Shown: positions 1 to 17,387 of the stretch, one piece after another
Numbering within the stretch: position 1 is the stretch's first letter
Layout of the letters: every line of letters begins with the position of its first letter
Origin: a virus
Reading direction: 5' to 3' (one strand)
IMG/VR virus record: IMGVR_UViG_3300026256_000121
Coordinates: 1-64,000 of that record
Length of the DNA stretch: 64,000 nt
Position numbers and translations under genes: made by a program
The notes under the pieces: model-generated
What the model was told of the DNA's origin: nothing
Databases searched by the model: none
What the model saw: only the letters and a program-made list of their open reading frames with translations

Positions 1-528
1 TTAATGGATTGTGAGCATTGGGATAAGTGCGTTGCTATTGTAGAGAAGATGAAAACTAGTAAACAACCTTGGATTATCGAAGCTAAAAGCATTGTTCAAT
101 TCCCAGGTAAAGATATTAACTCTTATACTCAAGAACAAATAGACTATGTTGCAAATACTATTAAAAGAGTTCCAGACCCAAAGTACATATTAAAACATAT
201 TGATGATTTTAATGTATTTCAAAGTGTTGCTTTATTTAATGATGGTACTGCAACAACTATGAAGTCTGAAGATTATATTCATAACAAATGGAATTATTTT
301 AATGATTGGACTTGTCATGTACCTATAGAAAATTTAGTTATAGTATATGATGGTACTGTTACAGGATCATGTAATGCAAATATTTTTAAAGATGCAAAAA
401 TTAACATTTTTTCAGAAACATTTAAAGAAGAATTTGAAGAAAAATCATTTGATTTAAAACCAATTAAATGTCCATTTAAGGTTTGTAATTGTTTACCTGA
501 TACTCATATTACGAAGTATATTTCGTAA
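1..528 (+). CDS. Radical SAM/SPASM-like protein, C-terminal part (cut by window edge)
   Basis: The reading frame is open to the left edge, so only the C-terminal ~175 residues are present and the radical SAM core lies outside. It contains DWTCHV, a second cysteine in GSCNAN, and a terminal cysteine cluster (CPFKVCNC) ending in ITKYIS. The radical SAM protein at 509-1405 ends in the same layout (CTREWCTC then ITKYTS), so the two are paralogues. By family knowledge such C-terminal cysteines often bind an auxiliary iron-sulfur cluster; the substrate is unknown. It converges on 509-1405 and the last codons overlap. Confidence 0.6.
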   Translation, partial: LMDCEHWDKCVAIVEKMKTSKQPWIIEAKSIVQFPGKDINSYTQEQIDYVANTIKRVPDPKYILKHIDDFNVFQSVALFNDGTATTMKSEDYIHNKWNYFNDWTCHVPIENLVIVYDGTVTGSCNANIFKDAKINIFSETFKEEFEEKSFDLKPIKCPFKVCNCLPDTHITKYIS

Positions 529-529
529 T
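508..529. terminator. Bidirectional hairpin shared by two convergent gene ends
   Basis: ATTACGAA and TTCGTAAT form a perfect 8-bp stem around a 6-base loop (GTATAT). The hairpin contains the last codons and stop codons of both convergent radical SAM genes. It has no long T-tract, so factor-independent termination is only a possibility. Confidence 0.45.
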
Positions 530-1405
530 ATTAATATCTGCGGCGCAAGTACACCATTCCCTAGTACACGTAATAGATTCAGTAGGTTTTTTAAAACTAC
601 CTTTATAAATGTTACCCAAACTACCGCCTACTCTACAAGTAGCACGGTGTACATCACCATCCCAATTTATCATTAAACTTTCCAGACCTGCCTGGCAAGT
701 CCAGCCTTTAAATCCGTTTGTTTTATTGATAAGCAAGTCGTTTACATTACATTCAATAGTGTTATCAATCAATGTATTAGTTGGAGGATTGTGATTTTCG
801 GTCTTTAAAAAGTCCAATTCTTCCTTAGAATAGCGTTCCAAATCTTCAAAAATATCATGTGTTTCAGTCCAGCGTATAGGACGTAAAGCATAGGGTATTC
901 CTGCATTAGAAAGGCGTCTACAAGCGTCTATAACGTCGTTTAAGCGTTGGTTAATCATCATGACATGTACAAGTACCATCTTGTTTTTAGATGTATTATG
1001 TACGCTTATAATGGTCTCTAAAACACGCTCCCAATCGTACTCAAAATGCAAACTAAACACTATATGATCTAGATATTTTTGGAGCATATCAACATAAAAG
1101 TTTTTGGTTCTTGTACCATTTGTAGTTACATTAATCCAGCTAACTTTAGGACGAGCATAGTTTAATAAAGTAGTAATATCAGGATGAACAAATGGTTCTC
1201 CTCCTGTAAAACTAATTCTTACATTTTTGAGTTTAGATAATTCGTCTACAGTATTTTTAAGAATTTGAATATCAGTATGTTCGCTAACCATGTCATGAAT
1301 TTCTGCTGGGCAATACGAACAGTCATAATTGCATCGTTTGCCTAGGTTCCATTCAACCTTAATACTTTCTGCATAATGGGGATATTTGTTTTCTACCTTA
1401 AACAT
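509..1405 (-). CDS. Radical SAM protein with C-terminal cysteine cluster
   Basis: The cluster motif CNYDCSYC (C25, C29, C32) is the CxxxCxxC signature that holds the SAM-cleaving [4Fe-4S] cluster, and TGGEP follows near residue 68. Additional cysteines sit around residues 237-257 and at C280, C285 and C287, in a SPASM/twitch-like position that may bind an auxiliary cluster. It is the last gene of a minus-strand operon and overlaps the gene before it by 13 bases. Its C-terminus matches the convergent protein at 1-528. Substrate unknown; peptide or sugar modification would be guesses. Confidence 0.8.
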   Translation of the reverse strand: MFKVENKYPHYAESIKVEWNLGKRCNYDCSYCPAEIHDMVSEHTDIQILKNTVDELSKLKNVRISFTGGEPFVHPDITTLLNYARPKVSWINVTTNGTRTKNFYVDMLQKYLDHIVFSLHFEYDWERVLETIISVHNTSKNKMVLVHVMMINQRLNDVIDACRRLSNAGIPYALRPIRWTETHDIFEDLERYSKEELDFLKTENHNPPTNTLIDNTIECNVNDLLINKTNGFKGWTCQAGLESLMINWDGDVHRATCRVGGSLGNIYKGSFKKPTESITCTREWCTCAADINITKYTS

Positions 1406-2220
1406 TGTATAGTTCCAATTTTATTATACACTGAAAGAGTTTCTATAATATCTTTATATGATTTATGATTTAATCCACTTTTAATAAGATTAATTTTAGC
1501 AACAGGAATCATCCCAAAGCTATTCTTTTTAAACGTATAACCTTTTTTGTTAAGCCATAGTTTGATTTGAAGCTTTCTTAAAGTATGCATAACCCAATTA
1601 ACACTTCTACCAAATTTTATCATAAAATCAGAACTATAATGTGTTTGTGGTACATCTGTAGTATATTGATCTTTGTCTTTAAAAATGTCTAACATATTTT
1701 TACCTACATGACAATAGTTAATATATACACAACCAAATTGCCATTTAAATGTAAAATCGTCATAGTTTGCTAACTCTAATTTTTGTCTAGGCCTATCTTT
1801 AAATGTTACAACAATGGTAGCCGCATTGCCTCTTTTTTGTGATTCATATTCGTGAATTAAGATATTAAATTGTTCAACAGCTACTTTTATTTCTTTAGGT
1901 GCATTGTTAAACCATTGTGTACCTTCAGTAATATCACCTCGTAAGTCTTCAAAGTACGTATGCAATAAATTTAAATCAGTGCAGTTAGTTACAAATATAT
2001 CTATTACTCTATCATATCTATTGATAATTTCAATTTGTTTATTAATTAATTTAATATAATATCTTTTATCCTGCCCTGGCCAATCAGTAAATCTTGTATT
2101 CTCATAAAGTTCGTTATGATTATATAATTCCTTATACCACTTTTTAGCAATATTAGTATCATATGTATCGAAGTATACCCATTTACTATCTTTATTATTT
2201 TTAAATAGTATTCTAAACAT
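1393..2220 (-). CDS. Conserved-looking protein of unknown function (275 aa)
   Basis: I do not recognise the family. The protein is soluble, rich in aromatic and basic residues, with a central stretch around TFKDRPRQKLELANYDDF followed by WQFGCVYINYCHVGK, which looks like a compact conserved core. It lies between two radical SAM genes and overlaps both (8 bases upstream, 13 downstream), so the three are probably translated together. A role as substrate-binding partner of the neighbouring radical SAM enzymes is possible but unproven. Confidence 0.6.
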   Translation of the reverse strand: MFRILFKNNKDSKWVYFDTYDTNIAKKWYKELYNHNELYENTRFTDWPGQDKRYYIKLINKQIEIINRYDRVIDIFVTNCTDLNLLHTYFEDLRGDITEGTQWFNNAPKEIKVAVEQFNILIHEYESQKRGNAATIVVTFKDRPRQKLELANYDDFTFKWQFGCVYINYCHVGKNMLDIFKDKDQYTTDVPQTHYSSDFMIKFGRSVNWVMHTLRKLQIKLWLNKKGYTFKKNSFGMIPVAKINLIKSGLNHKSYKDIIETLSVYNKIGTIQCLR

Positions 2221-3487
2221 AATTAGCGAACTCAGGATTGATTACATCAAATGGTCCTTGATTTCTTCTAGAGTCTAATGTTTTATTAAATGCAATACAG
2301 TCTTGCCAATATTCTGATAAATCTTTTGCTTCTAAAAAGTTTATATTGTCAGTAATTTGTTGTTGTGTAATCTTTTTCAATATAGGATGTTTTTTTACTA
2401 ACTTATAGCTATCTATCTTAGTATACATATCATTTAGTTGTCTAATTACATCATCTTTTAAAGGTTTAGGTAAAACTTGAGCACTTAATACTCTAGGGTA
2501 TTGTACTCTATGGCTATAAAACACTATCTCCAGATCATTTAAAAAGTATTCAATAACCTTTGGTAGTTGTAATATATTATTAGCTTGAACAGTAAATGCA
2601 CCAACAACTCTACTTACATTTGGAAATTGTTTAATTGCGTTAACGTTCTCGACAACTTCTTTAAAGTTACCGCCACTACGAATGTATTCATATATTTTCC
2701 ATAACCCGTCAATACTAACATTAACAGCTACACTTTTAAATTTAGGCCAATAGTCATAGATAGTGCGACCCCCTTTAATTCCTAATACAGTTCCGTTTGT
2801 AGCATACTTAATTTCAATATTATCGCCATACGGGGCTAACATATCTAAAATTTTATAATGCATTGGGTCCATTAACGGTTCACCACCAGCAAATTCTACT
2901 CGTCTAAAGTGCGGTAATAGTTTTTCAAAACTTTCCCACCAATTAGGACTATTATCAAACAAGCCTACATAAGGTGCTTTAGTTAATCCTAAGTTTTCTA
3001 CAGCCTTGACAAGGTAGTTGTTTTCAGCTTTATAATGATGTACAATAGAGTTCCAATCTTTCCATTGTGTACTATCTAACGGATTGCACATACGACATTT
3101 TAAATTACACAAATTATTAATTTTAATTTCCATTGTAGGTAATTCAAATGGCATTGTGTAATCGTCATTTAGTGTTTCTAATGCGTCTGGATATAAATTA
3201 ATTCTAGACTCTGGAATAACATCACTAATATGTCGTTGGCGTAAACTTTCTACACCCTGGTCTTCTAAATCAAAGCAAGGTTTACATACTTCAGGACGTT
3301 CGTTGTTTAATACTTGTTTACGAACTTTACGCATTGTATCATTGTTCCATGCTTCTTCTAAAGTTTCGTTTTGTATCCAACCAATAGGTTGACTACGACA
3401 GCAAATTTTAATTGCGCCGTCTTCTCGTGTTGCCAACCCCGTAAAAGGGTGCATACAATATGTACATGATTTTTTAGTTGAGGTCAT
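2213..3487 (-). CDS. Radical SAM protein with N-terminal SPASM/twitch-like domain
   Basis: The N-terminus has paired cysteines (C8/C11, C29/C30, C68/C71) resembling a SPASM-type auxiliary cluster domain placed ahead of the core. The radical SAM motif CNLKCRMC follows at C127, C131, C134, with AGGEP near residue 200. The order is reversed relative to classical SPASM enzymes such as PqqE, but I have seen this arrangement in marine phage radical SAM proteins. It overlaps the QueC-like gene by 14 bases. The reaction is unknown. Confidence 0.8.
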   Translation of the reverse strand: MTSTKKSCTYCMHPFTGLATREDGAIKICCRSQPIGWIQNETLEEAWNNDTMRKVRKQVLNNERPEVCKPCFDLEDQGVESLRQRHISDVIPESRINLYPDALETLNDDYTMPFELPTMEIKINNLCNLKCRMCNPLDSTQWKDWNSIVHHYKAENNYLVKAVENLGLTKAPYVGLFDNSPNWWESFEKLLPHFRRVEFAGGEPLMDPMHYKILDMLAPYGDNIEIKYATNGTVLGIKGGRTIYDYWPKFKSVAVNVSIDGLWKIYEYIRSGGNFKEVVENVNAIKQFPNVSRVVGAFTVQANNILQLPKVIEYFLNDLEIVFYSHRVQYPRVLSAQVLPKPLKDDVIRQLNDMYTKIDSYKLVKKHPILKKITQQQITDNINFLEAKDLSEYWQDCIAFNKTLDSRRNQGPFDVINPEFANYV

Positions 3488-4250
3488 TTTGTTTTATAGC
3501 CCAGTTGCGTTCTTTACACCAAAAACATTTTCCGCATTCTGGAACAGCTTGTCCTGGAACGTAAGTTTTATAATCTAGGTCACCAAAGACTTCAGGATAA
3601 TGTGTTTTATCACCTTCGCAACTACGAGTAAGTATTAATAGTCCTCTAATATTATGATCGTAATATTGTTTAATAATCCAGTCTTTACGTGTATAGATAA
3701 AAGGATGACAAACTGTTACACCCATGTGTTCTCTAACTAAAGGTGTTAAGTCTTCGGAAGGGTCAATATCTCTATCGTCTAGCTTACCTTTAAAGTCTTC
3801 AATAGGATTTTTGTTTACGCCGGCAAACCAAGCATCTAATCCGTATCTAAATGCAATATATTCTGCATGAGAACGTAGAATAATTTGATTACCACTTTTT
3901 AGTTTACCATATTCATCTATAATAGTAGGCCCTTTATCTCCCCATTCTAAATCAGGCGGAATAAAGTTTTGATGCATAGTAAATCTATGATCTGGAAATC
4001 TTACTTCTAACCAGTTATATACAGCTAATGCATTATATTTTTGCCAAGGTCTTGTTTTCCACATTCTAATATTAGTTAAAATATGTATATTAGTTGTATG
4101 GGGAACATTTGAACAAATTAAATAAGCCAATAATGCACTATCGGCTCCGCCACTTAAACTAATGCCAATATTTCTCCAGTTAGTTAATACAGGAAATTCT
4201 ACGTCATCATACTTAACAATATTTTCTGCATATTTTGTATCTTTTAGCAT
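3474..4250 (-). CDS. QueC-like PP-loop ATPase (candidate preQ0 synthase)
   Basis: SLSGGADSA near residue 31 is the PP-loop that binds ATP and releases pyrophosphate. Near the C-terminus, TRSCEGD and later CGKCFWCKER reproduce the zinc-site layout of QueC, which converts carboxy-deazaguanine to preQ0 with ammonia; here an insertion of about 25 residues separates the first cysteine from the others. The frame extends to a TTG at 4286, but the ATG at 4250 is preferred because the longer start would read through a perfect palindrome. FolE, QueE, QueD-like and DpdA-like genes elsewhere in the window support the call. Alternative: a PP-loop enzyme serving the adjacent radical SAM operon. Confidence 0.65.
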   Translation of the reverse strand: MLKDTKYAENIVKYDDVEFPVLTNWRNIGISLSGGADSALLAYLICSNVPHTTNIHILTNIRMWKTRPWQKYNALAVYNWLEVRFPDHRFTMHQNFIPPDLEWGDKGPTIIDEYGKLKSGNQIILRSHAEYIAFRYGLDAWFAGVNKNPIEDFKGKLDDRDIDPSEDLTPLVREHMGVTVCHPFIYTRKDWIIKQYYDHNIRGLLILTRSCEGDKTHYPEVFGDLDYKTYVPGQAVPECGKCFWCKERNWAIKQNDLN

Positions 4251-4267
4251 AACAGTATTTACCGCAT

Positions 4268-4283
4268 TTAACTGGCCAGTTAA
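4268..4283. promoter_or_regulatory. Perfect 16-bp palindrome between divergent operons
   Basis: TTAACTGGCCAGTTAA is its own reverse complement. It lies in the 54-base gap between the ATG of the QueC-like gene (4250) and the start of the plus-strand operon (4305), where a dimeric regulator could control both. No regulator gene was recognised in the window. Confidence 0.5.
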
Positions 4284-4304
4284 CAATTTACGGTAAGTAT
4301 ATAT

Positions 4305-4979
4305 ATGCTTTTGAAAAACACATTTATCTATGCTGATGCACAGGAAATCCTTGATATATTACCGCAATTAGAAGAAGGAAAAAACGAATTATCCAAACCA
4401 ACTGGAAATTTTTTTTATGATCCTTGGGAATTGTTACCGCAATATAAAGGTACAGCGTTAGAAGTTTTGTATAACAAGTTGCCCGAAGCAGGCCAGGCAA
4501 GAGTTATGTTAATAAAAGAAGGTACGTGTTATTCTGAACATGCCGACATTGATGATCGATACCATTTAACATTAGATGCAGAAAGTAGTTATTTAATCGA
4601 TATGGACAATCGCATTATGAACGCAACTACAGTTGACGATACAATTTTTTTAATGGATGGTAGTATTATCCATTCAGCCGTTAATTTTGGTCATCTACCT
4701 AGAGCAGAACTAGTAGTAAGGAAACTACTAACGCACAATAAACTAAAAGATCCAGCTAGGATTAATTTAACAGTTCGATACGACGTATTTGATTTACGTT
4801 ACCGTTTTGATATGGTGTTTAGCCCGTGGCTGAATCGTGCAAACAAAAAAGGGATAATTGATAACTTTGAGCCGATTAGTGAAACAGAACTAAATCTGGA
4901 TCTAGAAAAAAAATATATTGATGAGTTTAAAACATTAATAGAGGTGTCGGAGTTAGACATGGAGTTAAAAATTGACTGA
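4305..4979 (+). CDS. Cupin / Asp-Asn beta-hydroxylase-like protein
   Basis: A double-stranded beta-helix pattern is visible: EHADIDDRYHLTL gives an HxD-type metal pair around residue 78, and GSIIHSAVNFG supplies the distal histidine about 50 residues later, followed by RAELVVR. This matches the 2-His-1-carboxylate iron site of aspartyl/asparaginyl hydroxylase-like and cupin enzymes. It is the first gene of the plus-strand accessory operon. The substrate is unknown, and the C-terminal 80 residues are not recognised. Confidence 0.55.
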   Translation: MLLKNTFIYADAQEILDILPQLEEGKNELSKPTGNFFYDPWELLPQYKGTALEVLYNKLPEAGQARVMLIKEGTCYSEHADIDDRYHLTLDAESSYLIDMDNRIMNATTVDDTIFLMDGSIIHSAVNFGHLPRAELVVRKLLTHNKLKDPARINLTVRYDVFDLRYRFDMVFSPWLNRANKKGIIDNFEPISETELNLDLEKKYIDEFKTLIEVSELDMELKID

Positions 4980-5550
4980 AACTAAATGGAAAGAATTCCG
5001 TAAAATTATTGACGGTAAATTAGAAAGAGGTAGTTTAGCATACGAAGCCTATCAAAGTGAAAATCAATACTTAATGCATTTCTCTAATGAGCTTATATTC
5101 CAGAAAGAAATAGAGCATATTGAGAGATTATCTGAAAAAGATTATGCACCAGATATAGATAAAATAGATATTGAAAACATGAAGATCTATCTTCCACACC
5201 ATGCCTGGTACAATAACTTAAACCATTTAATTCATGAAGGTAGAGCACCTGATAATTGGAGAGAACAAGTTAGTAGAATTATTGAAGACTTAGAACGTGG
5301 AAATATTTATAAATTAAATTTGTTTACACATTGTTTTTATTTAGAAGAAGGAAAAATGCATCTAATGGATCTTTATGGATGTGTATTCCCAGATCAAATT
5401 GTTATGTTTGATCATATTAATCCTATTTTATCAAAACGATCAAGAGACCTTTTTTTACAATTCAAAGAATTAAATGGTATAGTTGATATGAAGGAAGCAT
5501 ATAGATACAGCAAAATTAATAATGTGTGGGGATTAAATGAAGATAGTTAA
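4972..5550 (+). CDS. Kinase-fold-like protein (192 aa)
   Basis: The TTG start overlaps the previous stop, with GGAG upstream at good spacing. The second half (NIYKLNLFTHCFYLEEGKMH followed by LMDLYGC) resembles the catalytic loop plus metal-binding Asp region of small kinase-like proteins, but the canonical HxD and DFG residues are not intact. The protein at 8335-9042 shows a similar pattern, so the operon may hold two divergent copies. Activity is doubtful. Confidence 0.4.
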   Translation: MTETKWKEFRKIIDGKLERGSLAYEAYQSENQYLMHFSNELIFQKEIEHIERLSEKDYAPDIDKIDIENMKIYLPHHAWYNNLNHLIHEGRAPDNWREQVSRIIEDLERGNIYKLNLFTHCFYLEEGKMHLMDLYGCVFPDQIVMFDHINPILSKRSRDLFLQFKELNGIVDMKEAYRYSKINNVWGLNEDS

Positions 5551-6058
5551 TAAATGTACCCTTATTAATTGGAATCCGGTCTTAGAAGAAATTAGAGACA
5601 AGCCAGGTCTTAATGCTCCTCTTAGATTACCGATAGATGAACCAGAAGTACAAAAGATGATAGAAGATTTAAAAGACTATCCAGCAGAATCAATTGAATG
5701 GTTTAATTATTATCCCGGAGTAGATTTTAATGTTCGTGTAGTAAAGGAATTTAGTGATCTTGTAAACAAAGAATGCGTTCGTGCGTGGATTAGCAAAGTT
5801 AATCCAGGAAAAACAGCACCGTGGCATTGGGATTATGATGATAATGAAGAAGCATATTTAAAGAAGGGCGAGTTAGTTAGATATCATGCAAGTATAAGTA
5901 AACCTTCTCCAGGCCATGTGTTTATGTTAGGTGATGAATGTTTTTATAACGAAGCTCAAGGAACAATCCATGAATGGCCTAATTATAAGTTATACCATGC
6001 TGGAGCAAACTGTGGGAGCGAACCAAAGTTCCAATTTAACTTTCTAGGATATAGATAA
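5537..6058 (+). CDS. 2-oxoglutarate/Fe(II) oxygenase-like protein
   Basis: APWHWDYDD contains an HxD iron-binding pair near residues 98-100, and LYHAGANCG gives the distal histidine near residue 155. FQFNFLGYR at the end takes the place of the usual 2-oxoglutarate-binding strand. The layout fits the aspartyl/asparaginyl beta-hydroxylase-like branch. It overlaps the previous gene by 14 bases and abuts the aminotransferase-like gene (stop and start share a base). Substrate unknown. Confidence 0.6.
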   Translation: MKIVNKCTLINWNPVLEEIRDKPGLNAPLRLPIDEPEVQKMIEDLKDYPAESIEWFNYYPGVDFNVRVVKEFSDLVNKECVRAWISKVNPGKTAPWHWDYDDNEEAYLKKGELVRYHASISKPSPGHVFMLGDECFYNEAQGTIHEWPNYKLYHAGANCGSEPKFQFNFLGYR

Positions 6059-6966
6059 TGAATCTTATACAAGTTCCTGACACATATACAGAAGAACATA
6101 TCAACGCTGATAGGCTAGGAGGAATGGTCCCTTTATTTGATAAAAGAATAGAGGAATTAATACATAATTTAAAAACTAAGAATATTGAATTTTTAGATCA
6201 TACATTAATGACGTTAAAGGAAAACGTTGGTGAAGATTTATTTGAAAGATTTAAACATAATTTTACTAATCATATAACAGCATCTATGTATAACCATTTA
6301 ACTGGGTTTGATGCATTTGAAGAAGTAAATATTATTGCAGGCTGTACACAATTTTTTGATGACCTATATGTTATGAATAAAGAAATACAGGTTTTAAAAA
6401 ATGAATACAAATATCATGAATTAATAAATCCTAATTTACAATATAAAACAATTGAATCATTAAGAGCCAACGTTCCGTTAGTTATTAGTTTACCTTTTAG
6501 TTTTCACGGTCAAGAACATCCAGAGATGAATAAAATTTTAGAAGTATGTTTGCAAAGACATATACCGTTGCATATTGATTCAGCATGGATTCCTGCTAGT
6601 AAAGATATCTGTTTTAATTATGATCATCCTGCTATACATTCTTTTGCTATAAGCATGAGTAAAGGATATGGTACTGCTGGTTGGAATCGTATAGGAATAC
6701 GTTGGAAAAGAAAACGTAATGGTAGTGATACTATTAATATATTAAAAGATTATCATCAAATAACTACATACCCTGTAGCAGTTGGATTGTATTTTTTAGA
6801 TAACTTATTACCAGATCATTTGTGGTCTACACATAAAGATCGTAATGAAAAGATTTGTAAAGACTTTGGTTTAACACAAACTAAAGCAATTCATATGGCC
6901 CGAAAGGGCGAAATTAATTATGGGCTTTCGCCTTTAATTAGATATTTGGAGTATAATCATGATTAG
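6058..6966 (+). CDS. PLP-dependent aminotransferase-like protein (fold type I)
   Basis: PLHIDSAWIPA carries the aspartate that pairs with the PLP ring nitrogen, and SFAISMSKGYGTAGW carries the Schiff-base lysine followed by the glycine/arginine stretch typical of aspartate and histidinol-phosphate aminotransferases. At 302 residues it is shorter than the usual 350-400, with a reduced N-terminal part. It lies between two oxygenase-like genes, so an amino-acid or amino-sugar side chain may be the common substrate; that is inference. Confidence 0.65.
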   Translation: MNLIQVPDTYTEEHINADRLGGMVPLFDKRIEELIHNLKTKNIEFLDHTLMTLKENVGEDLFERFKHNFTNHITASMYNHLTGFDAFEEVNIIAGCTQFFDDLYVMNKEIQVLKNEYKYHELINPNLQYKTIESLRANVPLVISLPFSFHGQEHPEMNKILEVCLQRHIPLHIDSAWIPASKDICFNYDHPAIHSFAISMSKGYGTAGWNRIGIRWKRKRNGSDTINILKDYHQITTYPVAVGLYFLDNLLPDHLWSTHKDRNEKICKDFGLTQTKAIHMARKGEINYGLSPLIRYLEYNHD

Positions 6967-7768
6967 AGGAATTGGTGGGCAACCATATATTGCATTAGAT
7001 AATTATTTAGATGTAGACGGGTTTAAAGAATTACACCCAGAAATTTGCAAAGGATTTGCTTTAGCAAGGGACTATGCAAAAGAAGGCACATGGATGAAGC
7101 CTGGGTTTACGTTTGACGACATGAGCTATATTATAGATTGGAAACCTATATACAAAGCATTTGCGGAATATGAAGCATTACCTGATAACGATCCTATTAA
7201 GGTTCAAGGTGCAGAGTTATTTCCAAAAGATTTTAAAGATTATAAACAAAGAAATTTATTTACAAGATATTTAAAATCAGCCTTAGGAGCAAACGATCCT
7301 TACATATATTATTTTCTTTGGGAAGAAGGCGACTGGCACAAACGCAATGCCAAACGTACTCCTACACCAGAACAACAATATTTTCCTGGTGTTGTAAAGT
7401 GGGTTACAGAATTAATTGAAAAAAATGTTATTACACAAATAGGACGAGTTATATTTTTTCATTGTGAACATGGTGGTAAAGCATTTGAACACAGAGACCT
7501 AGATGGCTCTAAAGGTACCGAACAAGGCTTTAGTCCACATAACAATGAGTTTATTCATATAAGGTATAGAACTAAAAGAGGCTTCTATATATGGGATCCT
7601 GAAGCAAAAAACAAAACATACATTAATGCCAATGCGGCATTTTGGAATGATCAAGATTGGCATGGTGGTGATGTCAGCAACGAACAAGAATATAGCTTAC
7701 GAATTGACTGTGTGTTCACAGACAAGTTCAGAAAGCAGATAGGTATAGCTCACCTAGAGCATTACTAA
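6959..7768 (+). CDS. 2-oxoglutarate/Fe(II) oxygenase-like protein
   Basis: AFEHRDLDG supplies an HxD pair near residue 180, DQDWHGGDVSN the distal histidine near residue 239, and YSLRIDC the arginine that usually binds the 2-oxoglutarate carboxylate. All three elements of the iron-dependent oxygenase site are therefore in order and at plausible spacing. It overlaps the aminotransferase-like gene by 8 bases. Substrate unknown. Confidence 0.65.
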   Translation: MIRGIGGQPYIALDNYLDVDGFKELHPEICKGFALARDYAKEGTWMKPGFTFDDMSYIIDWKPIYKAFAEYEALPDNDPIKVQGAELFPKDFKDYKQRNLFTRYLKSALGANDPYIYYFLWEEGDWHKRNAKRTPTPEQQYFPGVVKWVTELIEKNVITQIGRVIFFHCEHGGKAFEHRDLDGSKGTEQGFSPHNNEFIHIRYRTKRGFYIWDPEAKNKTYINANAAFWNDQDWHGGDVSNEQEYSLRIDCVFTDKFRKQIGIAHLEHY

Positions 7769-7769
7769 T

Positions 7770-8342
7770 ATGGCTTTTAAGTTAATACCATACTCGGATA
7801 CATTAGACCTTACTGAATTTTACGCAACCGCACAACAAAAAGGATTTGTTAATAACAATTCTAAAAAGATGTTAGTTGATTCTTTAGCTAAAGAAGATAG
7901 GTTTCAAGTTTGGATGTTAATGTGGAAAGAAAAAGTTATAGGTTGTACAGCGGCACATTCGTTCCCTGAAATGGGACCTGATAGTTATCGTATTGCTTGT
8001 CGTATATGTACATTTACAGATCAATTGCCTAAAGAATATAAAGGATTACGTGGTACTGATACAATAAGAAATCATCAAACTACTACACAACAATTTTTTC
8101 AACCTGCAGGTATTAAATGGGCAGGTCCTAATAAGAATTACTATGTAACAACAAATGAAAATGCAGAAGGTACCCAACGATTAGTACATAAAATTGTTGC
8201 TCCTACGTTAGAAGAAACAGGAGTATATACAAAGGCAAGAGTATTAGAGTACAGAGGTACACGCCAAACTGTATGGCGGGTTAATGCTGATATATATTTT
8301 AAACAATTACAGACTGCAAAAAAATGGCCAACTTATGAGTAA
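7770..8342 (+). CDS. GNAT acetyltransferase-like protein
   Basis: The centre (VWMLMWKEKVIGCTAAHSFP, then YRIACRICTFTDQLP) resembles the beta-strand core of GNAT N-acetyltransferases, with ARVLEYRGTRQTVWRVNADI at the end as a late strand. The acetyl-CoA loop (Q/RxxGxG/A) is not clearly seen. It starts one base after the upstream stop and overlaps the next gene. The call is tentative. Confidence 0.4.
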   Translation: MAFKLIPYSDTLDLTEFYATAQQKGFVNNNSKKMLVDSLAKEDRFQVWMLMWKEKVIGCTAAHSFPEMGPDSYRIACRICTFTDQLPKEYKGLRGTDTIRNHQTTTQQFFQPAGIKWAGPNKNYYVTTNENAEGTQRLVHKIVAPTLEETGVYTKARVLEYRGTRQTVWRVNADIYFKQLQTAKKWPTYE

Positions 8343-9042
8343 ATATAATTATTATTATAATAACGTCCCTGGAAAAGGATTATGTAGAAATAATTTAGTC
8401 TATACAAGCCTTATGAATGAGGATCAAACTGAGTTTATACAATGGTATTATAATGATACTGAATATCATAAAGGACATAATCAAGTAGTTGATCCTGTAT
8501 TAATGAATCAAAAATGGGAACGAGAACTTGTATTTTTACAGTTTATGGAAGTAGAAGCACCTAACTTAATTCCCAAAATTATTACTATTAATAATGAAGA
8601 ACGTAAAATTAAATTAGCAGTTGACGGCCCAGATTTTTGGGAACAATCAAGCTGTTCAGTAAATGGGTTTGATGAAACCTGTCCGGATTGGCAAGATCAA
8701 ATGTTAGATATTATTGCTAAACACGCCGAGCTTGGTCTTTATAAATTTAGTTTACACCCTAGTAGTTATTTTGTCGTAAATGGTATATTAAAAAGTATAA
8801 ATTATTTCTTTTGTTATTCAGAAGAAGAACCACAGATTGCTGTTAAAGATGTGTTAAGTCATATTAGCGAAGATAGGAAGCAAAAATTATTTCCTGCAAT
8901 GGCTAATTTGGGCATTAGCTTTGAACAGCCAGAGGAGTTTTTTAATTTGCAAATGTTATGTTTTGAAAGTTTTAGGGAAGATTATCCTAGAGAGTTTATA
9001 GAAGAAGCAAAGGAAATCTATGTGCGAGATAGCAGATTATGA
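8335..9042 (+). CDS. Kinase-fold-like protein (235 aa)
   Basis: The ATG at 8335 (MSKYNYYY), overlapping the previous stop, is preferred over an upstream ATG deep in the preceding gene. WERELVFLQFME then KIITINNEERKIKLAV resembles the N-lobe of small kinases, and LGLYKFSLHPSSYFVVNG resembles a degenerate catalytic loop. It shares this style with 4972-5550. Canonical catalytic residues are not clear, so it may be a pseudokinase or unrelated. Confidence 0.4.
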   Translation: MSKYNYYYNNVPGKGLCRNNLVYTSLMNEDQTEFIQWYYNDTEYHKGHNQVVDPVLMNQKWERELVFLQFMEVEAPNLIPKIITINNEERKIKLAVDGPDFWEQSSCSVNGFDETCPDWQDQMLDIIAKHAELGLYKFSLHPSSYFVVNGILKSINYFFCYSEEEPQIAVKDVLSHISEDRKQKLFPAMANLGISFEQPEEFFNLQMLCFESFREDYPREFIEEAKEIYVRDSRL

Positions 9043-9782
9043 GTTTTGAAACGAAGTTAAGAGTAATACATATATTAAATCATTTAGCAATTGTTCCCGC
9101 AATATATTATGGTGAATGGTGGATGTTTCTTGCGGCTCTAGGTTGGTGGAGCGTAATTGGTTGCGTTGGGATATCTGCAGGATTTCATAGATACTTGTCG
9201 CACAAGGCTTATAAAACACATCCTTGGTTTGAAAAGATAAGTTTATTTCTAGGATCTTTAGCGATGGGTGGATCACCATTAGCATGGGCAGGAGCTCATA
9301 GAATGCATCATGCATATACAGATAAAGAATTAGATCCTCACTCCCCAATACAAAAAGATTGGTGGAAAATATATATTCATTATTGGGGACGTATACAAGT
9401 AGATAAACGTTTTATTGCTGACTTACTAAAAAATAAAACAGTTATGTGGATTCATAGGCATTACTTTAGTATTATAACTTTCTGGGCATTAGGGTTAACA
9501 TTAATAGATCCTTTATTGCTTATCTTTGGATTTTGTATTCCTGCTGTATATGCCTTTCATGCATATGGTCAAATAAATGCTTGGTGTCATATGTTTGGAT
9601 ATCGTACATATAATACAAAAGATCATAGTTATAATAATTTTTTAGCAAATCTTATAACATGGGGTGAAGGGTGGCATAACAATCATCACAATAAACCAAC
9701 TAAATGGCAATTTGGCGAACGCTGGTGGGAGTTTGACCCAGCCGCAACTTTGATTAAGTTAGTAAAAAAGGATAAACTATGA
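9039..9782 (+). CDS. Delta-9-type fatty-acid desaturase
   Basis: Three histidine boxes are present in order: HRYLSH, HRMHH and HNNHH, which hold the di-iron centre of membrane acyl desaturases. Hydrophobic segments flank them (around residues 10-45 and 145-185). The length, 247 residues, is slightly short for the family. It would introduce a double bond into a membrane acyl chain, using electrons from a ferredoxin-type donor; a ferredoxin is encoded at 57656-57997. It overlaps both neighbouring genes by 4 bases. Confidence 0.9.
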   Translation: MSFETKLRVIHILNHLAIVPAIYYGEWWMFLAALGWWSVIGCVGISAGFHRYLSHKAYKTHPWFEKISLFLGSLAMGGSPLAWAGAHRMHHAYTDKELDPHSPIQKDWWKIYIHYWGRIQVDKRFIADLLKNKTVMWIHRHYFSIITFWALGLTLIDPLLLIFGFCIPAVYAFHAYGQINAWCHMFGYRTYNTKDHSYNNFLANLITWGEGWHNNHHNKPTKWQFGERWWEFDPAATLIKLVKKDKL

Positions 9783-10435
9783 CTTTAGCACCACTAACTG
9801 GGTCCTTCTTTATAATTCTAAGGGAAGGGTTCGAGGCGATGCTAATCGCTATGTTAATCTTTACCTATTTAAAGAAGTTCCACGCACAAGGTAAAGAGAA
9901 ATACGTATGGTACGGCATCATAAGTGGTATCGCACTATCAATAGTCATTGCAATGGGATTCAAATACATTGCTGGACTAACACACGAACACGAAGAATGG
10001 TTTGAAGGAGTCACAATGCTCACCGCGGCGGGTGTATTGGCATATCTGTCAATATGGTGCCACGGGGCCAAGAATCACTTTCAAGAGGATATACAGTCGA
10101 AACTCAAACCATTAGACAAAGAAATAACGCTTGGAGCAAGTTTGGCATTGTCTTTTGCCGTTTTTATTGCTATACTACGTGAAGGTTTTGAGATTGTATT
10201 ATTCTATGTGGCACTTATTTCATCTAGTGTAGACTCAGGCTTTGAGATACTTTTAGGTGGTGGACTTGGTGTTGCTGGTTTAATAGGTCTTTTTATTATA
10301 ATGCGAAAGAGTATGGATAAAGTTCCCACAGATACAATATTTCAATGCAGTAAATACCTGTTTATAATTGGGTCAATTTATTTTGCTTATTTAGGAGGCT
10401 CAGAAGTTTACGAACTATTAACTGAAACTCACTAA
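9779..10435 (+). CDS. FTR1-family iron permease
   Basis: Two REGFE motifs (ILREGFEAML near residue 14 and ILREGFEIVL near 129) are the hallmark iron-binding repeats of the FTR1/EfeU family. About six membrane segments can be read in 218 residues, slightly fewer than full-length members. The first ~350 bases look visibly richer in G and C than the neighbours, which suggests recent acquisition. Its oxygenase, desaturase and radical SAM neighbours all need iron, so iron supply to these enzymes is a reasonable inference. Confidence 0.85.
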   Translation: MTLAPLTGSFFIILREGFEAMLIAMLIFTYLKKFHAQGKEKYVWYGIISGIALSIVIAMGFKYIAGLTHEHEEWFEGVTMLTAAGVLAYLSIWCHGAKNHFQEDIQSKLKPLDKEITLGASLALSFAVFIAILREGFEIVLFYVALISSSVDSGFEILLGGGLGVAGLIGLFIIMRKSMDKVPTDTIFQCSKYLFIIGSIYFAYLGGSEVYELLTETH

Positions 10436-10444
10436 GGAGAAATT

Positions 10445-10795
10445 ATGCTTGAGGGACATTTCGCACACCCATCAGATGTAGCAGAAGCACAAGAGCAAAA
10501 GAAGAAAGATACCTTAATGATTTATTGTCCATCGTGCCAAGGTCGAGTAGATGTACCAATTGAACACGATGGACAAGACGGAAGACACCATCAAGGGATT
10601 AATTTATTGCCTGCAATTGCAGTAAATATGAAATGGAACAAGATGGATGCCGTTTGTAAAAAGTGTTTATTAGTTTTAGATATCGACCCGATTCTACAAG
10701 ATAGACAAAGGGTCGAATTGAAAGTTAGAATTGATTGTTCAAATATGTCTAGGGGACATATGGATTATTATGATGATGATAAATATAGCTACTAG
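10445..10795 (+). CDS. Zinc-ribbon protein
   Basis: YCPSCQGRV and VCKKCLLVLDID provide two CxxC pairs about 45 residues apart, the layout of a zinc ribbon. A histidine-rich patch (DGRHHQG) lies between them and the tail is acidic (YYDDDKYSY). AAGGAGA precedes the ATG. It sits between the FTR1 permease and a radical SAM gene; a metal-handling role is possible but not shown. Confidence 0.55.
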   Translation: MLEGHFAHPSDVAEAQEQKKKDTLMIYCPSCQGRVDVPIEHDGQDGRHHQGINLLPAIAVNMKWNKMDAVCKKCLLVLDIDPILQDRQRVELKVRIDCSNMSRGHMDYYDDDKYSY

Positions 10796-10804
10796 GGTAA
10801 TTAA

Positions 10805-11887
10805 ATGAAAGATCGAGAAACATTAAGTTTATGTCATACGTGTTATAGACACATACCAGCTGACCGTGTTACTAAAGATAATGGAGTTTATCTTATTAAA
10901 ACGTGTCCCGAACATGGTCATATGGAAGAATGTATTGAAAAGGATGTTGAATTTTACAATAGTTTAATATATAATAGAGTTACTACTGGAAAGAATACTA
11001 TAGATGAAGATCATGATAGTAATTATGAAAATTGTATTTTATTTGAAGTAACTGATCGTTGTAATTTAGAATGTCCTCATTGTTATCTACAACCCGATAA
11101 TAAAATAATAGATAAATCTTTTGACCATATCTTTAAAATGATAACGGAGCAAACACGATCTACTATGGATACTGTATTCCTTTCAGGTGCTGAATGTACA
11201 GTACGTAAAGATTTACCTGAATTAATTAAAGCTATTACAGACAGAGGAAATGATGTTTGTATTATGACTAATGGTGTTAAACTTTCCAAAAGAAATTATG
11301 TTAAGTCACTTGTAGACGCTGGCCTTAAAATGGCTGTTCTAAGTTTAAACCATGAGTCTTATCAAGGTAAAGTAGTACATGGAAAGCAAGTAGCTGGTAT
11401 AGATATTTGTAATGAAGAAGGTATGTGTGTAGAGAAAATATTTTATACAGTAGAACATATAGACCAAGTAGACGATGTAATGGAAGAAATACAAGCTATG
11501 GGTCTAAAAAATCACCCAAGAACTGAATATAGAATTAGAGCTGGTTCAGATATAGGTAGAACTCCAGATGAACCTAGATTCTTTTTAAGTGATCACGTAA
11601 AACTTATAAAAAGTATTGCTGATAAAAAAGGATGGACTTGGGAGAAAATACCAGGAGACGATAATTTATATCATTATATGGTTAAGATTAACGGTCTTGT
11701 TCATAGAATTATTCAATGGTGTGATGCTAGAACTATTGATATGGAACAATTAAAATGTGGACCTTATGCTTATTTTGTTCCGGGAAAACCTGTAAGTAAC
11801 TTTTTACATCAAATCATCTTACGTGATGCACATATTAATAATGGGTTACCATTATTAGATACTGTACCTGATCGTTATATAGCTTAA
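10805..11887 (+). CDS. Radical SAM protein of MJ0619/Tes type
   Basis: The N-terminal domain (LCHTCYRHIPA, then IKTCPEHGH) is characteristic of the radical SAM group that includes the archaeal pterin methylase MJ0619 and tetraether lipid synthase Tes. The core motif CNLECPHC follows near residue 87, with SGAECT in the place of GGEPT. At 360 residues it is shorter than archaeal members. Being downstream of a desaturase makes a lipid substrate thinkable, and the deazaguanine/pterin enzymes elsewhere make a pterin thinkable; neither is shown. It ends overlapping the convergent tail-fibre gene by 4 bases. Confidence 0.7.
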   Translation: MKDRETLSLCHTCYRHIPADRVTKDNGVYLIKTCPEHGHMEECIEKDVEFYNSLIYNRVTTGKNTIDEDHDSNYENCILFEVTDRCNLECPHCYLQPDNKIIDKSFDHIFKMITEQTRSTMDTVFLSGAECTVRKDLPELIKAITDRGNDVCIMTNGVKLSKRNYVKSLVDAGLKMAVLSLNHESYQGKVVHGKQVAGIDICNEEGMCVEKIFYTVEHIDQVDDVMEEIQAMGLKNHPRTEYRIRAGSDIGRTPDEPRFFLSDHVKLIKSIADKKGWTWEKIPGDDNLYHYMVKINGLVHRIIQWCDARTIDMEQLKCGPYAYFVPGKPVSNFLHQIILRDAHINNGLPLLDTVPDRYIA

Positions 11888-14911: not shown

Positions 14912-16195
14912 TTATTCTTCGTAATGTGCTGTTACACCAAACGGTGCTTTTAAATTTTTATCGTGATGCCCGTGAATAATAAAAACTGTTTCACAGTAAT
15001 TTTCATCACCCCATTTTTCCCAGGGATAACCATCAGTAAACATTATAAAACGTTTTGGATTAATCCCTTCTTCCTCCATATATTTCCAGTTTGCCATGAA
15101 GTCTGTTCCACCGCCACCTATGATCTGATAGTCTTCTAGTTCTTGACCATTGTCAGCAGTAAAATCTTGTTCGTTATATACCTTAGTATCAAAGCACCAT
15201 AACTTAATTTTGTAATCTTGATATTCTTGCATAATCCCTTGTACTTCGCTTAAGAATATTTCAGCTTGTTTATTACCAATTGATCCACTCATATCAATTC
15301 CAATACAAATATCAATAGTTGTATCAAAGTTCATACCTGGAAGAATTGCTCCAGTATGCCATCCTTTACGTGACGGACGTTGGAAAGAGTAATCATTTCT
15401 GATAGTACTTTGGATTTGCTGGCGTAGTAGCTCTCTCCAATTCATTTTAGGTTCAGTAAGTTCCTTAATAAATCTTTCAACTTCTTTTGGAATGTTACCT
15501 GCACCAGCCGCCTGTGCCGCCCCTAGCATACTTTCTTTTACTTCGTCACGTATCTTACGAAGCTCATCTTTAGAATAGCTTGGAGCACTACCTTTTTTAC
15601 CTTGTTTTTTGTCTTTTTTACTATTGCCGTCTTGACTATCTTTATCCCAATCAATATGCTCGTCAAGTAATTTACCTAATTTTTCAAGGTCTTCTTCATC
15701 ATATTTTTTGAAAAGCTCATCATAAACTGCTTCACTAGTCCAACCTTCATATTTAAAATCTTGGAAAATTGGAATCTCTTTAGGTTTGCTACCAATAGCA
15801 TCTCTAACTAGAGTATTGTTAACAATATAATCTGATGCAATATTATGGATTTGAGGATCTCTATCTTCACGTCTTGTCATATGATCAAAAACACAATGAA
15901 GAATTTCATGAGCAATAACAAACTCAATTTCTTTGTTTGTCATTTTAGCGAAAAACTGTGAGTTATAAAATAAATGTCTACCGTCAGTTGCGGCAGTAGG
16001 ACACCAATCATCACATTCTTTAATAATAAGTCTTGTAGCCATATTACCAAAAAATGGATGTCTTAAAAGTAGTCCAATTCGTGCAACAATAATTTTGTCC
16101 AAAACTTCAGCTCGAAGATCTTTTAATTCTTCTGGTGAAAGTTTAACTTCTTCTGTTTTTGGTTTTTCTAAAATTTCTGTAGTCATTTGTGCCAT
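14912..16195 (-). CDS. VWA-like metallopeptidase-domain protein
   Basis: HEILH (in FVIAHEILHCVFDHM) is an HExxH zinc site in the N-terminal half, as in the putative metallopeptidase domain fused to VWA-like domains. The C-terminal half has a MIDAS-type pattern: DMSGSIG, then GGGGTDF and FTDGYP. Proteins of this design pair with MoxR AAA+ ATPases, and one is encoded immediately upstream (16293-17387). The pair probably remodels or matures a protein or metal-enzyme target. It has its own sigma-70-type promoter. Confidence 0.8.
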   Translation of the reverse strand: MAQMTTEILEKPKTEEVKLSPEELKDLRAEVLDKIIVARIGLLLRHPFFGNMATRLIIKECDDWCPTAATDGRHLFYNSQFFAKMTNKEIEFVIAHEILHCVFDHMTRREDRDPQIHNIASDYIVNNTLVRDAIGSKPKEIPIFQDFKYEGWTSEAVYDELFKKYDEEDLEKLGKLLDEHIDWDKDSQDGNSKKDKKQGKKGSAPSYSKDELRKIRDEVKESMLGAAQAAGAGNIPKEVERFIKELTEPKMNWRELLRQQIQSTIRNDYSFQRPSRKGWHTGAILPGMNFDTTIDICIGIDMSGSIGNKQAEIFLSEVQGIMQEYQDYKIKLWCFDTKVYNEQDFTADNGQELEDYQIIGGGGTDFMANWKYMEEEGINPKRFIMFTDGYPWEKWGDENYCETVFIIHGHHDKNLKAPFGVTAHYEE

Positions 16196-16219
16196 TCCTC
16201 AATTTCTTATTATATGTAT

Positions 16220-16248
16220 ATTATACTATATTTAATGTTCATTGTCAA
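16220..16248 (-). promoter_or_regulatory. Consensus sigma-70 promoter (TTGACA-17-TATAAT)
   Basis: The -35 TTGACA (16243-16248) and -10 TATAAT (16220-16225) are both perfect and exactly 17 bases apart, in front of the VWA-metallopeptidase gene. Confidence 0.85.
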
Positions 16249-16257
16249 CCGAAATCT

Positions 16258-16280
16258 GGAAGGGGATTAAATCCCCCTCC
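16258..16280 (-). terminator. Strong hairpin after the MoxR gene
   Basis: GGAGGGGGATT and AATCCCCTTCC pair along about 10 bp with one G-T wobble. It lies 13 bases after the MoxR stop and just before the next promoter. No T-tract follows, so it may be a processing or stability hairpin rather than a true terminator. Confidence 0.5.
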
Positions 16281-16292
16281 AAATAGCGCCTA

Positions 16293-17387
16293 TTAGGCCG
16301 ACGCCTCGCCTTGTGCGGCTTTAATATATTTGCCAAAACGTTCATGGAACTCATCAAAGCAATCAACTTCATCTGGATCGATTGGAAGTTGATATTGTGT
16401 AAGAGCCAATTTAATACCCATAACTACTAATTCAGTATCAAAATTGTCCATTGCGAACCTTAAGAAGTTATTAACTTTATCATCAAACTTCTTATCGTTC
16501 TTATCACTTGCTTCTTTAAGCTCGTAGCACAAAGAGACTGTTAAGGAATACATGGCACTGATTTCTTTAGTCTCTAACTTCTTAACCTTAGCAGTAAGTA
16601 TATCGCTAGGATTAGGAAGGTCTGCGGCCACTCGTCTATGAGCCATAAACTTAACGGCAAGTCCTTCGCCGACTGCACCACTAACTAAATCTGTAGTGGT
16701 ATTTTCATCGTCATCATCTTCCAAAAGTTCGGAAACAAACGACCATGAACGGGGTGTAGCAAATGAACGACTCGGTGATTTTGGATCAAAATCGTATAAG
16801 TCCTTCTTGCTAAATGTCAAATAACCAACAACATCTTGATGCTGATTGTTCTTAACAGCCCACTCAAACCAATCATCAAAATCCACTTTAATTTCTAAGT
16901 GAACAAAACGGTTGGCTAACGGAGCAGGCATTCTATAAGTAACACCTTTATCAGCTTCTCTGTTACCTGCGGCAACAATCAAAACGTTATCTGGAAGTGT
17001 ATAAGTACCAACCTTACGATTAAGAATTAATTGGTAAGCCGCGGCTTGTACTGCCGGTGGTGCTGAATTCATTTCATCCAAAAACACAATAATCTGTTTA
17101 TGCTTTTTCGCCATTTTCTCATCTGGCAATTCGCTTGGTGGTGCCCAAACCATTGTACCTTGTTTAGAATCAAAATATGGAATACCTTTAATATCTGTAG
17201 GTTCCCATAAACTTAGACGTATGTCAATAACATGGGCTTCTATGCTATCACCAATTTGCCTAACTATGTCTGATTTTCCAATGCCTGGGGGACCCCAAAT
17301 AAAGATTGGACGTTTCTTTTTAAATGCTCGAATAATACTTGCTTTTGCACTATTCGGACTTACTTGTCTTACTGCTAGATTTTCCAT
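16293..17387 (-). CDS. MoxR-family AAA+ ATPase
   Basis: Walker A is GPPGIGKSD near residue 33, Walker B is IIVFLDEMNSAPP, and AAGNREAD is sensor 1. The order and the 364-residue length fit MoxR chaperone-like ATPases, which act with VWA-domain partners; that partner follows directly (14912-16195). The C-terminal 100 residues form the usual lid plus an unassigned extension. A TTGACC-17-TATAAT promoter with phased A-tracts stands upstream. Confidence 0.85.
   Translation of the reverse strand: MENLAVRQVSPNSAKASIIRAFKKKRPIFIWGPPGIGKSDIVRQIGDSIEAHVIDIRLSLWEPTDIKGIPYFDSKQGTMVWAPPSELPDEKMAKKHKQIIVFLDEMNSAPPAVQAAAYQLILNRKVGTYTLPDNVLIVAAGNREADKGVTYRMPAPLANRFVHLEIKVDFDDWFEWAVKNNQHQDVVGYLTFSKKDLYDFDPKSPSRSFATPRSWSFVSELLEDDDDENTTTDLVSGAVGEGLAVKFMAHRRVAADLPNPSDILTAKVKKLETKEISAMYSLTVSLCYELKEASDKNDKKFDDKVNNFLRFAMDNFDTELVVMGIKLALTQYQLPIDPDEVDCFDEFHERFGKYIKAAQGEASA

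Follow-up and report, generated by a model that had tools for sequence, protein, structure and literature searches.

We analysed a window of 64,000 nucleotides (nt), bases 1-64000 of the IMG/VR virus record IMGVR_UViG_3300026256_000121, the full contig of which is 74,451 bp. At 9039-11887, genes for a fatty-acid desaturase, an FTR1-type iron permease, a zinc-ribbon-like protein and a rubredoxin-type radical S-adenosylmethionine (rSAM) protein lie in tandem order, all on the + strand. A preliminary description had read them as one phage operon that reshapes host lipids and iron supply together, with an rSAM enzyme of the Tes/MJ0619 type. The four genes and their order were confirmed by Pfam matches and open reading frame (ORF) positions, the zinc ribbon by its CxxC pairs, and the desaturase and FTR1 assignments lie well above the Pfam cut-offs. 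At 9039-9042 and 9779-9782, the stop codon of one gene overlaps the start codon of the next, and the following two intergenic gaps are 9 nt each; therefore, the single-operon reading is reasonable, the four genes forming the 3' end of a + strand run of 11 genes from 4305 to 11887. The same genes recur at 100% amino acid identity in two other contigs, L002 and L004 (99.1% in one of them for the aspartyl-hydroxylase-like gene at 4305), indicating that the gene order is not an assembly artefact. However, the four genes do not form a single unit. The rSAM gene belongs to a viral quartet, together with genes for a pseudokinase, a GNAT-fold protein and a 2-oxoglutarate (2OG)-oxygenase-like protein, whereas the desaturase and the FTR1/zinc-ribbon pair are separate insertions.

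A viral rSAM quartet and separate insertions

Gene linkage was assessed after near-copies and self copies had been removed. Of the 55 non-redundant rSAM loci, 37 had 4 kb or more of flanking sequence on both sides and were used for the counts. The pseudokinase and GNAT each accompanied the rSAM gene in 36 of these loci, and the 2OG-like gene did so in 35; eight core arrangements were seen, including one that consists of the rSAM by itself. The desaturase was present in five of the 37, and FTR1 and the zinc ribbon in one each, which is the window itself. Across the complete set of 81 loci, which contains self copies, the numbers were 75 for the pseudokinase, 69 for GNAT, 66 for the 2OG-like gene, 11 for the desaturase, and two each for FTR1 and the zinc ribbon. 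In 18 of 55 loci, the gene directly upstream of rSAM is the pseudokinase, the gap being usually 1-5 nt; in the window, this junction is occupied by the desaturase, FTR1 and zinc-ribbon genes. FTR1 as a constant part of the rSAM pathway was rejected, given its presence in 1 of 37 loci and in none of the 16 other quartet records searched.

The quartet partners were characterized individually. The pseudokinase family profile matched the kinase TTK (E 3.1e-4); its HRD/DFG region is HPSSYFVVDGKLKSINYFF, and in a reading guided by TTK the Asp of both HRD and DFG is replaced across 32 members. The AlphaFold2 model of the GNAT-like protein (mean predicted local distance difference test (pLDDT) 93.0) matched the GNAT PA3270 with Z 13.2 over 156 residues, and 10 of 28 members matched the Pfam family FeeM (N-acyl amino acid synthase) weakly, the best with E 0.0096. 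In the 2OG-like protein, H178, D180, H235 and R248 are invariant across 22 aligned viral homologues; no Pfam family was found across these 22 members, apart from stray sub-threshold matches, and no PDB sequence matched. For none of the three proteins did tblastn find a match among the 50,697 phage records. A second kinase-like protein, at 4972-5550, has a degenerate catalytic loop by eye, and its family is present in 47 of the 81 rSAM loci.

The desaturase matched FA_desaturase (PF00487) with E 4.2e-15 (56.7 bits, cut-off 29.7), and among solved structures acyl-CoA desaturase 1 is the closest (E 1.6e-15). The full stearoyl-CoA desaturase (SCD) pattern of ligands is present, comprising HX4H, HX2HH, HX2HH and an N...H pair, and the complete His/Asn pattern is found in 18 of 19 distinct viral homologues, the exception being L025. 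Desaturases recur in related islands: those of L023, L024 and L034 are 40-43% identical to that of the window, and those of L048, L054, L060-L062 and L089 are 28-30% identical and lie inverted between GNAT and the pseudokinase. Because these identities are low, several acquisitions are suggested. A desaturase occurs also in Pelagibacter phage Mosig, and viral desaturases from Lake Baikal have already been published (PMC7678222). As judged from its sequence, the window protein is a predicted desaturase whose substrate is likely an acyl chain; bulk lipid remodelling is not supported by these data.

FTR1 matched PF03239 with E 1.4e-26 (93.9 bits, cut-off 25.3), and its REGFE motifs, at residues 15 and 134, lie within or beside predicted hydrophobic segments 10-28 and 115-133. 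It resembles EfeU/Ftr1 in its two REGFE motifs and in exceeding the Pfam cut-off, but differs in being only 218 amino acids (aa) long, with the C-terminal part of the model unmatched and no EfeO or EfeB seen adjoining. It covers positions 6-191 of 282 in the NCBIfam profile and 4-176 of 284 in the Pfam profile and is not a full-length permease; the score for NCBIfam TIGR00145 was 107.5 against a cut-off of 303.8. Other viral FTR1 proteins are likewise short (209-220 aa). A PDB search with the FTR1 alignment returned a chance helix match only, and tblastn against the phage records gave weak matches in unannotated records. The accompanying zinc-ribbon protein has two CxxC pairs, the four Cys of which are invariant in five aligned members. 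Its assignment to a known family was rejected, as Pfam matches were sub-threshold and no PDB profile match had an E value under 0.068; no match was found in phage records.

FTR1 relatives at 46-62% identity occur in 13 other full-length viral loci, in two gene contexts. In seven of the 13 (L107-L112 and L114), a zinc ribbon is next or next but one to FTR1; the closest relatives of the window's pair are in this group (62%), suggesting that its FTR1 and zinc ribbon were probably acquired as a pair. In the other context (L014-L018 and L113), two genes follow FTR1; Pfam identified them in L014 and L017 as Nfu, with Nfu_N plus NifU domain, and FeS_assembly_P (SufT/PaaD); in L014, ClpS, aldehyde dehydrogenase and ClpP, also assigned by Pfam, surround these genes. 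A NifU domain is present in six of six records of this second group versus 1 of 25 others, and the six records hold 3, 4, 3, 13, 12 and 2 rSAM genes. These contigs are classed as viral in IMG/VR, and PHROG matches agree; among ten proteins scanned in them, neither a capsid nor a terminase gene was found. The order ClpS-like, FTR1, Nfu and SufT/PaaD-type was seen in L014-L018 and L113 and is Pfam-confirmed in L014 and L017 only, and up to 13 rSAM genes lie within 38 kb in contigs of this group. FTR1 likely imports iron for iron-sulphur (Fe-S) enzymes in these contigs and, by extension, in the window.

The rSAM protein lacks both auxiliary clusters of Tes

Tes, GDGT-MAS and MJ0619 are one enzyme, the "zinc ribbon" of which is a rubredoxin-type iron site, CX2CX20CX2H (PMC9433317). 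In that article, three clusters are described for the enzyme: one auxiliary at the N terminus, the radical SAM cluster, and a second auxiliary one at the C terminus, which carries the substrate radical. The N-terminal auxiliary [Fe4S4] of MJ0619 is bound by C73, C77, C80 and a His (PMC9433317); the C-terminal auxiliary [Fe4S4] has a Met ligand, and Tyr459 is strictly conserved.

The window rSAM matched Zn_ribbon_HMPTM (PF23545) with 56.2 bits (cut-off 27) and Radical_SAM with 49.4 bits (cut-off 29.5); a PF23545 superfamily match was present in 17 of 17 rSAM-quartet records, within a set of 25. Its kinship with Tes is supported: the PDB profile search returned 7TOL with E 1.8e-28, the predicted structure (pLDDT 88.4) matched 7TOL with Z 29.4 over 334 residues, followed by MoaA with 17.1, and the profile-profile alignment with Tes gave E 1.6e-53 at 27% identity. 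Thus, the viral protein shares with Tes/GDGT-MAS (7TOL/7TOM) the rubredoxin spacing, the CX3CX2C motif and, in the model, the overall fold. Both motifs were found in 101 of 106 viral matches, with a spacing of always 20; of the remaining five, two were variants, two were fragments and one was an unrelated rSAM. The radical SAM cysteines C86, C90 and C93 are present in 43 of 43 non-redundant viral sequences, in which the only invariant Cys are the six of the rubredoxin and radical SAM sites, with one more in 39.

However, the viral rSAM is without either auxiliary cluster and about 140-170 residues shorter than Tes. A strict pattern for the N-terminal auxiliary-cluster motif matched 0 of 101 viral sequences versus 109 of 114 cellular relatives, and the five cellular relatives that failed it are variants by eye. 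The Tes residues C340, M442, C458, Y462 and C473 (L141 numbering, 17 Tes sequences) fall at or past the end of the viral protein, and no conserved C-terminal Cys was found in the 43 viral sequences. The best NCBIfam models were TrsS, a radical SAM (seleno)protein (NF045646, 110 bits), and Tes (NF045702, 90.3 bits against a cut-off of 450). Although TrsS scored highest, the window protein is far under its cut-off of 490, and the N-terminal auxiliary motif is present in each of the ten TrsS sequences used.

A tree was built from 102 sequences, of which 64 were cellular, 29 viral and 9 outgroup. The viral rSAM proteins form one clade (SH-aLRT 100) with a long stem (1.73), outside the cellular clade (97) of Tes/TrsS-type enzymes. 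Approximately unbiased (AU) tests, run on 48 of the 102 tree rows, did not reject a grouping of the viral proteins with Tes (p 0.358), with TrsS (p 0.125) or with the Bacteroidota/Chloroflexota type (p 0.355). Therefore, the case against a Tes function rests on the missing clusters. Tes orthology was rejected on their absence; the tree alone leaves a sister position possible. Placement outside the MJ0619/Tes group, which the preliminary description had named as evidence against its proposal, is thus largely what we observed, with a Tes-sister position left open by the AU test. That is, the viral rSAM is a remote relative of Tes, and the proposed kinship is correct for the superfamily but misleading as regards function. 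A tetraether-like lipid reaction is not supported because the protein is without the auxiliary clusters and the Tes C-terminal part, and the viral enzyme probably has a different function.

In the 50,697 deposited phage records, tblastn of the rSAM gave a single partial match (30% over 36% of its length). A contig scan with the full rSAM alignment gave no confirmed relative, with two C-terminal patterns only, which is no proof of cellular absence; the scan with the N-terminal half recovered the cellular superfamily.

The surrounding island and its relatives

Features of the island and its right boundary (positions in the window)
Position	Strand	Feature	Length	Basis
509-1405	-	rSAM, divergent half		PF04055 54.3 bits
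1393-2220	-	unassigned protein, divergent half
2213-3487	-	SPASM plus rSAM, divergent half		PF04055 40.4 bits, SPASM 31.4 bits
3474-4286	-	PP-loop-like, divergent half		QueC sub-threshold only, 16.7 bits (cut-off 22)
4305-4979	+	Asp_Arg_Hydrox-like		PF05118 23.8 bits (cut-off 22.6)
4972-5550	+	second pseudokinase-like protein		weak matches and motif reading only
5537-6058	+	cupin/2OG-like		weak matches and motif reading only
6058-6966	+	pyridoxal-phosphate (PLP)-fold-like		weak matches and motif reading only
6959-7768	+	quartet member O, 2OG-Fe(II)-oxygenase-like	269 aa	motif H178xD180, H235, R248
7770-8342	+	quartet member G, GNAT-fold acyltransferase-like		AlphaFold2 model, PDB match
8332-9042	+	quartet member K, protein-kinase-fold pseudokinase		called ORF starts 8284; homologues suggest ~8332
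9039-9782	+	SCD/DesA-type fatty-acid desaturase, accessory insertion	247 aa	PF00487
9779-10435	+	compact FTR1/EfeU-type iron permease, accessory insertion	218 aa	PF03239, two REGFE motifs
10445-10795	+	four-cysteine zinc-ribbon-like protein accompanying FTR1	116 aa	CPSC and CKKC
10805-11887	+	quartet member R, minimal rubredoxin-type rSAM	360 aa	PF23545 and PF04055
11884-13242	-	Mtd_N-type tail-fibre-like protein, right boundary of island		PF18454 E 7e-12

The + strand run faces a - strand run (4286-509) that includes two further rSAM genes. An identical contig extending 35 kb further left shows that this virus has at least nine rSAM genes; it carries UDP-sugar dehydrogenases within the island, followed by tail-collar and fibre-like genes. 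The island sits among tail genes of a probable T4-like giant phage. The nearest relative of the window DNA polymerase is that of Sinorhizobium phage Phosso (50.6%), followed by those of other giant T4-like phages of 348-490 kb, and a related viral contig of 269,730 bp carries the same rSAM family, so the record probably represents part of a giant-phage genome. The window has a G+C content of ~34%, and no tRNA genes were found in its 64,000 nt. A promoter and terminator scan was uninformative (31 promoter-like sites versus 47 in shuffles). At 14912-17387, a VWA metallopeptidase (DUF2201) and a MoxR-type AAA ATPase form a pair that is kept in relatives at 61-87% identity.

The 16 related quartet records hold 1 to 16 rSAM genes each, and 15 of them hold six or more. 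Further genes were observed in such records. A tryptophan halogenase (PF04820, E 2.1e-83; L074:4664-6271) lies beside the rSAM quartet in the 269,730-bp contig. There are also a carbamoyltransferase (L063:17850-19340), a TauD-type dioxygenase (L063:5211-6266), a class-III aminotransferase (L048:3048-4145), and cobalamin-binding rSAM proteins with the B12 domain under the Pfam cut-off (L074:12851-14455 and L086:1949-4012). Two or more rubredoxin-type rSAM copies lie side by side or in one island in L087, L091, L093, L101 and L105, and Zn_ribbon_HMPTM is matched four times in one record. A tandem array of four or five similar ORFs, each of ~200 aa, lies at L048:4157-7115 (- strand); one was tested and matched no Pfam family. 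An amidinotransferase assignment made by eye for L048 and L074 is not claimed, as Pfam did not confirm it in L048.

Marine T4-like viruses with many rSAM and Fe-S genes were described previously (Nishimura et al. 2017, PMC5332604). In one T4-like genome of 183 kb, that study describes 12 radical SAM genes together with paaD and a gene for an A-type Fe-S carrier; the words 'permease', 'FTR1', 'desaturase', 'Nfu' and 'NifU' do not occur in its text. Pelagibacter phage Mosig EXVC030M has a desaturase, Asp_Arg_Hydrox, an aminotransferase, a GNAT-like protein and a MoaA-like rSAM beside tail-fibre genes; however, the window's rSAM (10805), 2OG-like (6959), GNAT (7770) and kinase-like (8284) proteins had no tblastn match in it. 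Neither a phage FTR1 permease nor this quartet was found in open-licence PMC papers. That is, rSAM-rich Fe-S phages are already known, whereas FTR1 and the quartet were not found in print.

Possible products of the island and alternative explanations

With somewhat less than even confidence, we favour a large viral biosynthetic island whose quartet core makes a tailored small product or a virion modification, and in which FTR1 imports iron. The pseudokinase would hold a peptide-, amino-acid- or sugar-like substrate, which acylation by GNAT, hydroxylation by the 2OG-like protein and hydrogen-atom abstraction by the rSAM may tailor, the outcome being either a small product or an altered tail or surface of the virus itself. 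The rSAM, of the same stock as archaeal Tes, would perform a simpler radical step because it is without the two auxiliary clusters that join lipid tails. FTR1 and the zinc ribbon, inserted between the pseudokinase and the rSAM, would import iron for the island's Fe and Fe-S enzymes, and the desaturase, a recurrent accessory enzyme of such islands, would act on an acyl chain. Gene content, the folds of two quartet members, the Tes kinship, the cluster loss, the co-inheritance of the quartet and the separate insertions are shown by the data, whereas the reaction, its substrate and iron import are inferred. We consider it possible, but doubtful, that the virus-only rSAM family, as a cluster-stripped offshoot of the tetraether-synthase stock, is central to a reshuffled yet inseparable four-gene pathway by which uncultured giant phages make a specialised metabolite or virion modification, accompanied in some lineages by an iron importer and Fe-S assembly proteins that would feed up to 16 radical SAM enzymes.

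Several observations weigh against this biosynthetic interpretation. The 2OG assignment comes from the HxD...H...R motif alone. No precursor peptide was identified, and more than one pathway may be encoded in the island. The window FTR1 is shorter than cellular EfeU/Ftr1 (218 aa versus a 282-position model), and FTR1 was found in 0 of the 16 other rSAM-quartet records searched, all of which are fragments. Moreover, the group with FTR1 and zinc ribbon consists of small-genome viral records without rSAM in four of four examined (of seven loci); therefore, FTR1 needs no rSAM island. Of the preliminary proposal that lipids and iron are reshaped together, the iron supply is the part that gained support, through the FTR1-Nfu-SufT/PaaD operons in other viral contigs, with the rSAM-free FTR1 group as a counter-example; the joint unit was not upheld, the insertions being separate.

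The tail genes on either side raise another explanation, namely that the island's rSAM, 2OG, GNAT and sugar enzymes modify the flanking tail-fibre or receptor-binding proteins. The Mtd_N protein at the right, the tail-collar and fibre-like genes at the left in the identical contig, the UDP-sugar dehydrogenases inside the island, and the similar set adjoining tail-fibre genes in phage Mosig are consistent with it. However, a tail-gene neighbourhood may mark an insertion hot spot only, and we regard this explanation as unlikely. Remodelling of host lipids, in which the desaturase alters acyl chains, a Tes-like rSAM joins or branches the lipid tails of the host membrane and FTR1 supplies both with iron, appears quite unlikely. 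The SCD-type desaturase has a complete ligand set and desaturases recur in such islands, the rSAM is structurally closest to a lipid enzyme, and GNAT is weakly similar to FeeM; however, the rSAM is without the Tes machinery for such a reaction (both auxiliary clusters and the C-terminal part), TrsS outscores Tes (110 versus 90 bits) with both far under their cut-offs, and the desaturase is missing from 32 of 37 rSAM loci, indicating that the rSAM is independent of it.

Thymidine-hypermodifying phages provide a precedent for base modification by similar enzyme classes, and rSAM, PLP-like, GNAT and kinase-like proteins could likewise modify a base of the phage genome, with which the weakly QueC-like PP-loop protein at 3474-4286 is consistent. 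This is very unlikely, as the kinase-like proteins have a protein-kinase fold and not a P-loop, and the 5-hydroxymethyldeoxyuridine kinase family PF18723 was not found in 31 records, which are fragments searched without a positive control. We likewise give little credence to plain cargo, that is, unrelated auxiliary genes at a hot spot that each serve the host separately through iron uptake or membrane fluidity. The FTR1 pair and the desaturase do move independently of the quartet; however, the quartet survives reshuffling, and FTR1 repeatedly adjoins Fe-S assembly genes.

The likeness to Tes is one of kinship and provides no evidence for a lipid reaction; the stripped rSAM family is instead a natural experiment on the purpose of the Tes auxiliary clusters. 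If the biosynthetic interpretation is true, a viral iron importer directly before Fe-S assembly genes would make phage-borne iron supply testable in the laboratory. Some giant phages would then be miniature biosynthetic organisms, with a conserved pathway and 6-16 rSAM genes in 15 of the 16 other quartet records and at least nine in the virus studied here.

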